From contig QCPD01000002.1 of the NCBI GenBank assembly GCA_003209755.1, forward strand, positions 1-64,000: a stretch of DNA of 64,000 nt. Reading direction: 5' to 3'. Source of the stretch: Prochlorococcus sp. AG-436-C14 (lineage in GTDB: Bacteria > Cyanobacteriota > Cyanobacteriia > PCC-6307 > Cyanobiaceae). How positions within the stretch are numbered: position 1 is the stretch's first letter; each line of letters begins with the position of its first letter. Positions 1,696 through 59,826 of this stretch are shown one piece after another. The notes below the pieces were generated by a model. That model had not been told where the DNA came from. It saw nothing but the letters and a program-made list of their open reading frames with translations, and did no database searches. The translations under genes and the position numbers were made by a program.

Positions 1696-1947
1696 TCAGG
1701 AAAAGGCAGCCAAAGAATATCCCTCGTCAAATAATCTTTGATAAGTAAATCTAGCTTCATATTCCTTATATGCCTTCCTTTTTCCATCATTTTTTTGTAT
1801 GTATACATAATTATCGTTAATACGACTCCTTGTAAATGTATAAACTATGTCTGCCTTTGATAGTATCCATTGAATTGATTTGTTTTTACGTTGATCGATA
1901 TTTAAATCCCATGGGATATTCTCAGGATATTTCTCTGTTATTGTCAT
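1696..1947 (-). CDS. Hypothetical protein of the E-K-Y-P-E/P-W-D-L family, copy 2 (83 aa)
   Basis: Second member of a tandem pair with the gene at 1380-1631. It has the same length and the same conserved N-terminal (E-K-Y-P-E-N-I-P-W-D-L) and C-terminal (A-R-F-T-Y-Q-R-L-F-D-E-G-Y-S-L) blocks, with divergent residues between them. This copy lies upstream in the direction of transcription. No signal peptide or membrane helix. Function unknown; conservation between copies supports both as real genes. Confidence 0.65.
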   Translation of the reverse strand: MTITEKYPENIPWDLNIDQRKNKSIQWILSKADIVYTFTRSRINDNYVYIQKNDGKRKAYKEYEARFTYQRLFDEGYSLAAFS

Positions 1948-2312
1948 TTGATTGGGAGTGTTTATTTAAATTATTGCATTAAAGCCTTGTCGACATGAGA
2001 ATAAATACTGAGTTTGTTTCTGTTATATCTATTTGATTATGCATTATTAAATTTCTGCATATCTGTGTTTAGCTAATTAACAAAATATCTAAGTATCTAA
2101 TTAAAATTATTCTCTTGATTAAATTTATGTGATTATTTTAATTTACCTGTAATTTGATCAGGATTTGAACTTAATCCTCTCTCAGGCATATATTTCTAGT
2201 CTTGGCGATTTATTTGATTACCATTGCTTTCTTTTTATGGCAATTCTCATTTTTGACATAATCGCTAATTTTATTTCCTTGATTCCTTAAGAAAAGAAGT
2301 TAATGAGGCGAC
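1948..2312. other. AT-rich intergenic region
   Basis: About 365 bases between the minus-strand pair and the plus-strand ligase-like gene. I see no ORF with coding character, tRNA or clear hairpin terminator. It should hold the divergent promoters for both sides, but no confident -35/-10 pair was picked. Confidence 0.4.
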
Positions 2313-2945
2313 TTGGCCGAACATTTTCCTATTGATATAAATATGAGGTTACTTGGACTTGATAAAGATTGTTTTTCAAGCTGGTGGGCTAAGTTACCAG
2401 AAGGATCAACTATGGTTGTCCAACCAAAAATAGATGGTTGCGCTGTAGGACTTAGATATAAATATGGTCAATTAGTAGATGCCTATTCTCGTGAGGATAA
2501 TGAAATTATTGAAAATATTAGGAATATCAATGCTATTCCTTTGAGTATTGATGACTCCTTAAAAGTTGAGGTTGAGTTGGAGGGCGTTTTATATTCTCCT
2601 ACTTCTAATTCCAAGATCTCAATAGAACAATTGTTATCAAACTCAATCTCAAAAATTGATAGTAATACCTCTCTTTTATTTTTTGCATTCCAAATTTTTA
2701 GCTCTAACAGTGATGAGTTGTCAGATTTAACTCAACTTCAAAAATGGGGATTTGAAGTCCCTATCACTCTAAGAACTGATGACCCTAGTCAGGTCAAAAG
2801 ATGGCATTCTCAATGGATCAAGAATGAATTGTTTTCAAATCTTCCTACCAATGGAATCGTCGCTAAATGCAATTCATCCTTGACTAAGAATATTTTAGGT
2901 GTAAGTCCTTCTTCTCCAAATTGGGCTTTGGCTTTAACTAGATAA
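2313..2945 (+). CDS. Stand-alone NAD+-DNA-ligase-type adenylation domain protein (210 aa)
   Basis: The protein aligns by eye to the nucleotidyltransferase domain of bacterial LigA: Q-P-K-I-D-G at 37-42 (motif I, K39 the adenylated lysine), S-R-E-D at 59-62 in place of T-R-G-D-G, I-R-N-I-N-A-I-P-L at 69-77 (LigA V-R-T-I-x-A-I-P-L), L-E-G-V-L-Y at 89-94 (LigA V-R-G-E-V-F), F-F-A-F at 123-126, N-G-I-V-A-K at 180-185 (motif IV, D-G-V-V-x-K) and W-A-L-A at 204-207 (motif V). It lacks domain Ia, OB-fold, zinc finger, HhH and BRCT, so it is about one third of a normal ligase. The catalytic glutamate of motif III appears as V92, the motif IV aspartate as N180 and the motif V lysine is missing, so sealing activity is doubtful. 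Start TTG at 2313; ATG at 2343 is an alternative. Confidence 0.75.
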   Translation: MAEHFPIDINMRLLGLDKDCFSSWWAKLPEGSTMVVQPKIDGCAVGLRYKYGQLVDAYSREDNEIIENIRNINAIPLSIDDSLKVEVELEGVLYSPTSNSKISIEQLLSNSISKIDSNTSLLFFAFQIFSSNSDELSDLTQLQKWGFEVPITLRTDDPSQVKRWHSQWIKNELFSNLPTNGIVAKCNSSLTKNILGVSPSSPNWALALTR

Positions 2946-7422: not shown

Positions 7423-8715
7423 ATGAATGAAATCAAATGCCCTGAATGTGGAAGTACGATCAGCATCGATGAAGATAATTACTCAAATATTATTAAGCAA
7501 GTAAGAGATCAGGAGTTTGAGAATGAAATGAGAAAAAGGATTGAACTGCTTGAAAAAGATAAACAGAAATCAGTAGATCTTGCTATTCAGAATATTCAAT
7601 TACAAATGCAAGAGGCTGCATTTGTAAATGAAAAAAAAATGCAAGGGCTACAGTCTCAATTAATTGCTGCTCAGGCTGAAAAAACTATGGAGATGAATGA
7701 GATTAAGCATACATTCGAAAAAGAGAGAGACTCACTCACTTATTTATTGGAAAAAACAAGAGAAAAGAATGAATATGAAAAAAAACTTGCAGTTTCAAAC
7801 GCGGTTACTGAATTAAAAGAAGGGTATGAAATAATCAAAAATAATTTAGACAAAGTTGAATTACAAAAGGAATTATCTGAAAGATCTATAAAGATGAGAT
7901 ATGAAATTCAGTTGAAAGAACGCGATGATTTAATTGAGAGACTTCGTGATATGAAAATAAAGTTGTCCACAAAAATGGTTGGTGAGTCGCTTGAGCAACA
8001 TTGCGAAAATGAGTTTAATCGCTTAAGGGCAACAGCTTTCCCCAATGCTTATTTTGAAAAAGATAATGATGCAACTTTTGGTAGCAAAGGTGATTATATA
8101 TTTCGTGATAGTGATAGTGATGGAAATGAAATCGTTTCTATAATGTTTGAAATGAAAAACGAAAATGATAGTACTTCTAACAAGAAGAAAAATGAGGATT
8201 TTCTTAAAGAGTTAAATAAAGATCGCATAGAAAAAAATTGTGAATATGCTGTGTTAGTTTCTTTATTAGAATCTGACAATGACTTATTTAATTCTGGTAT
8301 TGTTGACTTTTCATATAGGTATCCAAAAATGTATGTTGTTCGTCCTCAATGCTTTATTCCAATAATTTCTTTACTAAGAAATACTTCTATTAAGGCGCTT
8401 GAGTATAAATCAGAGTTAGCAGCTATTAAAGAGCAAAATATTGATATCACTAATTTTGAGAATAGCCTTGAGCTATTTAAGGATTCTTTTGGTAAGAATT
8501 ATGCATTAGCTTCAAAACGTTTCGAAACTGCAATTATGGAGATTGATAAATCTATAAATCACTTGCAGAAAACCAAAGATTCCTTACTTGGTGCTGATAG
8601 AAATCTTAGGTTAGCTAATGACAAGGCTCAAGAAGTTTCGGTTAAAAGATTAACTAGAAATAATCCTACCATGAGAGAAAAATTTAACTCAATAAAACAA
8701 AACAAGGCTGCATAA
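7423..8715 (+). CDS. DUF2130 family coiled-coil protein with N-terminal zinc knuckle (430 aa)
   Basis: The protein begins with I-K-C-P-E-C-G (C6, C9), the short zinc-knuckle start seen in DUF2130 proteins, followed by the family phrase [11 protein letters not shown]. Residues about 35-185 form a long charged coiled coil; residues about 190-320 form a globular region with [12 protein letters not shown] and the acidic/lysine pattern G-D-Y-I-F-R-D and M-F-E-M-K, reminiscent of a PD-(D/E)xK-type nuclease core (E-x-K). A further helical segment closes the protein. The coiled coil plus nuclease-like fold recalls RmuC, but activity is inference. The GIY-YIG gene follows 39 bases later. Confidence 0.8.
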
Positions 8716-8754
8716 TTAATCGTTTATCTTTTACATGTATGATTTTAATTTAAT

Positions 8755-9297
8755 ATGAGTGGATGGCTTTATCTAATAAGAAATAGAGATTTATACAAGA
8801 TTGGAATAACAAAGAATTTAGAAAATAGGATGCGACAACTCAAGCCAGATAATGTTGTTGGTAAATTGTATACTAGAGATTTTCTAAAATTAGAGAGAGA
8901 GTTACATAATCGGTACAAGAAGTTTAGAATCCCTCAAACGGAGTATTTTCGATTAGAAGATAATCATCTTAATGAGATAAAGCAAAGAATATTCAAACTT
9001 GAGTACCCACTTAGTATCTATTTACAGATTTTTATAAAATCTTTATTATTAATAATATTAATATTTTTTCTTTTGTTTTTATTATTATTTTTAAATATTA
9101 ATGATAATAATATTATACTTCTTAAGTCCCTATTATGGATGGAGAGAATTACATTTGGATACTCCTTTATTTCTTTATTCGTTTATTCGGGTAAATATTT
9201 AAGCTTCTTGAATGAATTAAAATATAGATTTTCAAGGTTAATTGTATTTATAATATTTTCATACATCTTTAGGATAGCCTCTGTGTTTTTACAATAA
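8755..9297 (+). CDS. GIY-YIG (T5orf172/MUG113-like) domain fused to membrane segments (180 aa)
   Basis: Residues 3-80 look like the T5orf172/MUG113 branch of the GIY-YIG nuclease superfamily: W-L-Y-L-I-R-N at the first strand, Y-K-I-G-I-T at the second, R-M-R-Q-L, then L-E-R-E-L-H-N-R-Y with the conserved E/H helix and T-E-Y-F-R-L-E. From about residue 88 there are two long hydrophobic regions (about 90-113 and 133-178, probably three or four helices), very unusual for this family and implying a membrane-anchored domain. It follows the DUF2130 gene closely on the same strand, so they may be one operon. Whether it cuts DNA is unknown. Confidence 0.75.
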   Translation: MSGWLYLIRNRDLYKIGITKNLENRMRQLKPDNVVGKLYTRDFLKLERELHNRYKKFRIPQTEYFRLEDNHLNEIKQRIFKLEYPLSIYLQIFIKSLLLIILIFFLLFLLLFLNINDNNIILLKSLLWMERITFGYSFISLFVYSGKYLSFLNELKYRFSRLIVFIIFSYIFRIASVFLQ

Positions 9298-59752: not shown

Positions 59753-59826
59753 TGTCAGTGGAGAGACTTGAACTCTCGACCTCAGCGTTATGAATGCTGT
59801 GCTCTAACCGGCTGAGCTACACTGAC
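59753..59826 (-). tRNA. tRNA-Met (anticodon CAU)
   Basis: A 74-base cloverleaf on the minus strand: a 7-bp acceptor stem (G-T-C-A-G-T-G with C-A-C-T-G-A-C), a D arm with G-C-T-C-A-G-C-C-G-G-T-T-A-G-A-G-C, an anticodon loop T-T-C-A-T-A-A carrying CAT, and a T arm with G-A-G-A-G-T-T-C-A-A-G-T-C-T-C-T-C. The last anticodon-stem pair is a mismatch. An elongator Met tRNA is most likely; a tRNA-Ile with modified CAU cannot be excluded. CCA is not encoded. Confidence 0.93.

Follow-up and report, generated by a model that had tools for sequence, protein, structure and literature searches.

Gene A, a short open reading frame in the 64,000-nucleotide stretch of Prochlorococcus DNA analysed here (the window), encodes a stand-alone adenylation domain of the NAD+-dependent DNA ligase type. 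It has the fold of that domain without the other ligase domains, three of its catalytic residues are replaced in all orthologues, the gene is under purifying selection, and it belongs to a clade of similar stand-alone proteins, which we named ‘mini-Lig’ for the purpose of this study. With a probability of roughly two in three, we consider A to be a conserved pseudoenzyme derived from a catalytically complete mini-Lig of phages and mobile elements, which is now inherited at a fixed locus and acts by binding. A ligase core that lacks a DNA-binding module is normally regarded as a fragment. Here, such cores make up a whole clade that nearly all members of one ocean picocyanobacterial group carry, and protein family models see only a ligase in it.

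Domain content, gene start and active site

The preliminary description took the frame at 2313-2945 (+), which is present and begins with TTG at 2313, for a minimal ligase-type adenylation domain without any other ligase domain. This was borne out by a match to the Pfam family DNA_ligase_aden (PF01653; E 8.2e-19, 68.5 bits with a cut-off of 27) and by the absence of the remaining domains. The OB, zinc, HhH and BRCT domains were not found by Pfam in A and were all found in the complete LigA (691 aa) encoded by the same genome. Alignment with this LigA placed the beginning of the protein at the border between domains Ia and Ib, so that the NMN-binding domain Ia is missing. The ATP-dependent ligase family PF01068 scored 21.1 bits, which is under its cut-off of 26.2, and OB motif VI is absent; A does not qualify as an ATP-dependent DNA ligase. 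The OB domain family PF03120 occurs once in the genome, in LigA itself, and a second stand-alone paralogue (B) with 30% identity to A is also encoded. The structural comparison with LigA domain 1b that had been proposed gave a matching fold: the AlphaFold2 model of A (pLDDT 85.7, pTM 0.83) aligned to LigA domain 1 with a VIA Z score of 22.6 over 199 residues (rmsd 2.5), and the top Foldseek match was the LigA adenylation fold of 7k72 (E 6e-15).

Translation of A probably starts at the ATG at 2343 rather than at the TTG at 2313. This ATG is kept in all 26 orthologues that cover the region, of which 11 have no in-frame start upstream of it, and residues 1-10 of the TTG version were modelled with a mean pLDDT of only 34 (AlphaFold2). 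With this start, the protein has 200 residues and K39 is renumbered K29; residue numbers of the motifs (K39, V92, N180, T209, etc.) are counted from TTG 2313 in the following. The conserved stretch just before this ATG (Table 1) may be a promoter or leader, or possibly a relic of the lost domain Ia. A domain Ia HMM scored 1.5 to 4.4 at the expected place in a few of the upstream regions of A, but shuffled controls reached 4.6, so these scores do not distinguish a relic from chance. Elsewhere in the window, two adjacent 83-aa ORFs at 1380-1631 and 1696-1947 (-) resemble paralogues, are found at the same locus in relatives and have no Pfam match, and the stretch 7423-9297 encodes a DUF2130 protein and, after it, a protein of the T5orf172/GIY-YIG type whose tail is hydrophobic.

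Catalytic motifs were assigned from alignments with LigA of the same genome and among 27 orthologues of A, one of which is cut at the motif I lysine (Table 1). The previously noted order of motifs I, IIIa, IV and V was confirmed, as were the replacement of the motif III glutamate by valine, that of the motif IV aspartate by asparagine and the loss of the motif V lysine, the last being a threonine. Motif I had been described as K-I-D-G; this stands for A itself, and K39 proved to be conserved across the orthologues, but the aspartate drifts in the family (D15/E8/A2/V2 among 27 sequences). The motif I glycine, the arginine after motif I and the motif IIIa phenylalanine are each present in 27/27 orthologues, and the region from motif III to motif IIIa is much shorter in A than in LigA. 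A complete catalytic set (K-D-G-E-D-K) was found in 0/27 sequences of A and 0/27 of B. PMC6698739 assigns roles to the lysines of motifs I and V, to the acidic motif III residue and to domain 1a, and PMC5052709 describes NMN binding by domain 1a. Given the losses in motifs III, IV and V and the absent domain Ia, A would not be expected to adenylate itself from NAD+.

It could be argued that A is still an enzyme, i.e. an adenylyl- or nucleotidyltransferase of altered chemistry, whose retained lysine works with ATP or a different donor to modify an RNA, a protein or a small molecule. The motif I lysine (26/26) and the motif IV lysine (27/27) could permit residual chemistry with another donor, and the invariant glycine, arginine and phenylalanine fit such a function. 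However, 95 of the 201 well-filled columns are invariant within the A family, so conservation of the motif I lysine says little about catalysis by itself. Furthermore, the motif I aspartate is E, A or V in 12/27 sequences, the motif III glutamate, motif IV aspartate and motif V lysine are absent, and A possesses neither OB motif VI nor domain Ia, the parts that position the leaving group in the two classes of ligase (PMC6698739). Continued enzymatic activity of A is therefore considered unlikely.

Table 1. Position of gene A, its motif sites and the adjacent leader in the window
Feature	Position	Strand	Evidence or conservation
Gene A: stand-alone NAD+-ligase-like adenylation-domain protein, probable pseudoenzyme, 200 aa	2343..2945	+	PF01653, conserved ATG, AlphaFold2 fold, dN/dS
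Conserved leader directly 5' of the ATG (candidate promoter, leader or domain Ia relic)	2279..2342	+	About 64 bases strongly conserved among 25 aligned orthologues; DNA farther upstream diverges
Motif I, K-I-D-G (K39-G42)	2427..2438	+	Lys 26/26, Asp 15/27
Motif III site, E90-G91-V92 replacing R-G-E	2580..2588	+	Glu column V19/I8 among 27
Motif IV site, N180-G-I-V-A-K185	2850..2867	+	Asp to Asn 27/27; Lys kept 27/27
Motif V site, W-A-L-A-L-T209	2922..2939	+	Lys to Thr 27/27; then one Arg codon and stop

Distribution, phylogeny and selection

An orthologue of A was detected in 27 of the 41 genomes of the genus and, when only near-complete genomes are counted, in 15 of 17; all of these orthologues are short and syntenic. 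Identical counts were obtained for B (27/41; 15/17), with the same 15 near-complete genomes. In genomes with an unbroken assembly of the region, A and B are ~4 kb from each other and oppositely oriented, and the syntenic genes around them include AbrB-like and DUF938 genes and a gene that we take to be hli-like.

A family-level search of 400 genomes returned matches in 123 at 1e-12. In the sister genus g18, which is probably high-light Prochlorococcus (GC ~29% in the loci read; near-complete genomes of 1.6-1.7 Mb), at least one copy was present in 136/151 genomes and in 52/52 near-complete genomes. The g18 proteins (~249 aa) consist of domain Ia and the nucleotidyltransferase (NTase) core, and end at the motif V lysine or one residue beyond. 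Group HL1 was catalytically complete in all 10 sequences read; among the seven HL2 sequences, motif IV has an asparagine in six and motif V a glutamate or glutamine in all seven. One HL2 copy (L121:4148-5580) is arranged divergently from a photolyase-like (FAD_binding_7) gene with ~280 bases between them. In a phylum-wide search, stand-alone frames among the matches listed were confined to the window's own family, and the matches listed from outside it were frames of at least 650 aa representing LigA. No description of the mini-Lig clade, or of a stand-alone NAD+-ligase core in Prochlorococcus, was found in the literature searched. PMC11357015 lists a viral protein family ‘NAD-dependent DNA ligase’ as one of those that LL strains have retained, and in PMC3686209 an NAD-dependent DNA ligase was over-represented in two samples.

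In a maximum-likelihood tree of 93 rows (A and B subsampled one in three; the fragment N_L139 omitted), which is unrooted and in which some long branches meet, the 85 stand-alone rows were split with 100/99 support from the other eight, i.e. LigA, T5-type subunit A and longer viral proteins. A grouped with group C at 100/99 in the same tree, and the two share 42-47% identity. As first delimited, 9 of 11 C sequences were complete at the sites present; the two exceptions (L030 and L032) are eroded sequences that fall with A in the tree. Since L030 keeps the motif IV aspartate and the motif V lysine, the catalytic loss was stepwise. The L032 locus (also L081) has the AbrB-like and further neighbours in common with the A locus. 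In genome G092 (L135), a complete protein lies close to a gene related to the DUF938 gene next to B, which makes it probable that B, too, derives from a complete protein. A GC-rich relative (G236; L131, L132, L133) contains four stand-alone copies, two of which are nearly identical over the core, and this suggests recent spread.

The median dN/dS was 0.152 for A (27 sequences), 0.167 for HL1 (10), 0.198 for C (9, without the eroded L030 and L032), 0.41 for B (27) and 0.425 for HL2 (7), all being NG86 pairwise medians, which are coarse and come from groups of different depth, with the HL1 and HL2 sequences picked from the fetched loci. By this measure, the disarmed A is as constrained as the groups with a complete active site. 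B and HL2, whose active sites are also altered, look to be under relaxed selection. It had been considered that A might turn out to be a truncated pseudogene of a full-length ligase; this was ruled out by the purifying selection, the synteny and the uniformly short orthologues, with the complete LigA encoded elsewhere in the genome.

That A is a decaying, non-functional relic of a mobile mini-Lig is improbable. Such decay would agree with the loss of domain Ia and of three catalytic residues, and with the state of the neighbouring paralogue B, where the higher dN/dS is accompanied by loss of the motif I aspartate in 27/27 and of the lysine in 2/27 sequences. For A, however, dN/dS is as low as in the catalytically complete groups, the orthologues read have an uninterrupted frame after the conserved ATG, the substitutions in motifs III, IV and V are fixed rather than scattered, and the predicted fold is confident. 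The fixed losses in 27/27 orthologues combined with purifying selection point to a conserved pseudoenzyme.

Copies associated with integrases and viruses

A tyrosine recombinase was identified near some of the complete host copies by matches to PHROG integrase (E 2e-15 and 3e-14), and HxxR and GH...Y, presumably the tyrosine recombinase motifs, are visible in the integrase alignment. Twelve integrase/mini-Lig pairs were listed: six encoded on one strand, with the ATG of the mini-Lig and the stop codon of the integrase overlapping in ATGA (L075:5962, L077:838, L124:5912, L147:5792, L150:5779 and L151:2528; the L147 integrase is a fragment), three divergent with a gap of less than 100 bases (L074, L076, L132), one with an integrase remnant 269 bases away (L135), and two at a distance of 3.6-3.9 kb. 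Judged by gene arrangement, the ATGA overlaps likely reflect translational coupling of the integrase with the ligase-like adenylyltransferase. All nine close pairs (the six overlapping and the three divergent ones) carry K-D-G-E-D-K. Most of the 62 host copies with 1.5 kb available on both sides, a count that includes A, B, HL1 and HL2, have no integrase nearby. Two C copies abut tRNA-Pro (L031 and L078). No trace of an integrase relic was seen near A or B, and the nearest tRNA to A within the window is at 59753; A does not lie in a tRNA-bounded element with its own integrase, as tycheposon cargo would.

A first scan of IMG/VR with a single protein gave no relatives, and a scan with alignments gave 80 loci. 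In 29 of these, on marine viral contigs (L163-L191; 27 distinct), the mini-Lig is a stand-alone frame of 248-293 aa; of the other 51 (L192-L242), the six examined (L192, L193, L194, L197, L205, L210) all have longer frames. The K-D-G-E-D-K set is complete in 29/29 viral copies, where only the counts for the motif III glutamate and the motif V lysine are unbiased because the scan patterns included motif I and the motif IV core, and where the loci are related and hence not independent. A gene of a minor-tail-like cluster was found within two genes of the mini-Lig in 29/29 of these related loci (immediately upstream in 26, two upstream in 1, two downstream in 2). Two members of this cluster match the PHROG ‘minor tail protein’ (E 4e-26 and 2e-13), and one has a weak, below-cut-off match to Pfam Minor_tail_Z (E 0.013). 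An additional upstream gene, from a cluster with a VapE-like helicase domain, is present in 18/29 loci. The minor-tail-Z-like viral partner (alignment A4) was not detected in hosts (0/41, 0/101 and 0/13 genomes, the third set overlapping the others); in controls, A4 detected 4/4 mini-Lig viral records outside the alignment, which are near relatives of its rows, and 0/2 T5-type records. No gene beside A points to a partner, the partner search was empty, and a PADLOC search for defence systems gave no useful match.

It is very improbable that A is a subunit of a split ligase completed in trans: T5-like phages do encode such a pair side by side (g108/g109 of phiR2-01; the PR1 heterodimer, 9hu3/9i5i), but LigA is the single OB protein of the genome, no homologue of the ligase C-terminal part was found near the mini-Lig in 29 viral (311 kb) or 46 host loci (525 kb) by a search that was positive in T5-type controls, and T5 subunit A falls outside the clade (100/99), so this candidate was rejected on gene context.

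Proposed role of A and comparison with known systems

The catalytic set is intact in the copies from mobile contexts (9/9 close to integrases, 29/29 viral), compared with none in A or B. We hypothesize that complete mini-Ligs, as their motifs and domain Ia suggest, make lysyl-AMP from NAD+ and serve mobile DNA. The ancestor of A would have been such a complete stand-alone adenylyltransferase of phages and integrase-bearing mobile elements. In the lineage of A, the NTase core would have lost domain Ia, the motif III glutamate, the motif IV aspartate and the motif V lysine, and would have kept the fold, the motif I lysine and glycine, the motif IV lysine, the arginine after motif I and the motif IIIa phenylalanine, with inheritance now at a fixed chromosomal locus. 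Descent from mobile complete cores indicates that A has probably been domesticated and binds rather than catalyses. It would most likely bind the partner or nucleic-acid end used by an active mini-Lig, as a regulator or decoy, and AMP or another nucleotide might be held non-covalently in the remaining pocket.

Among the three readings in the preliminary description, that of an inactive paralogue is supported by the fixed motif losses, the missing domain Ia and the purifying selection, yet it is incomplete. An RNA- or protein-AMPylating enzyme, or a repurposed nucleotidyltransferase of this kind, is unlikely for A but may apply to its catalytically complete relatives.

A wider reading, which we regard as doubtful, is that the mini-Ligs of phages and integrase-bearing DNA constitute a new family of NAD+-dependent adenylyltransferases that picocyanobacteria have repeatedly domesticated, with A serving as a decoy against mobile elements. 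The mini-Lig would be translationally coupled with integrases and work without a ligase DNA-binding domain, and A would occupy the partner or DNA end needed by the active mini-Lig of an invading element. The decoy idea derives only from the pattern of disarmed chromosomal and intact mobile copies, and HL1, which is intact and chromosomal, implies that domestication need not disarm. Returning to A as a domesticated pseudoenzyme, complete copies travel with integrases and phages, and A would represent the scaffold retained for non-catalytic use. A, disarmed yet conserved, and an intact mini-Lig form a pair in which the role of an NAD+-fed adenylation domain without ligation can be tested directly.

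Among known systems, domain 1b of LigA (EC 6.5.1.2) shares with A the fold (Z ~18-23), the motif I lysine, the motif order and PF01653, whereas A is without domain Ia and the OB, zinc, HhH and BRCT domains, and has its motif III, IV and V catalytic residues replaced. Lig E and other minimal ATP-dependent ligases resemble A in small size and NTase core. They have an OB domain (PMC12133292, PMC6698739), in contrast to A, for which PF01068 is also sub-threshold. In the T5-type heterodimeric NAD+ ligase, the adenylation module is likewise encoded as its own gene (subunit A; phiR2-01 g108, PR1 structures 9hu3/9i5i). This subunit (phiR2-01 g108, 326 aa) adjoins the gene of the C-terminal subunit, whereas mini-Lig has no such partner, and it falls outside the stand-alone clade. 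Tycheposons are tRNA-linked integrative elements of Prochlorococcus. Unlike these, A occupies a conserved chromosomal locus with no integrase or tRNA beside it; some of its relatives resemble tycheposons and other tRNA-linked elements in that they adjoin tyrosine integrases, and two relatives abut tRNA-Pro.
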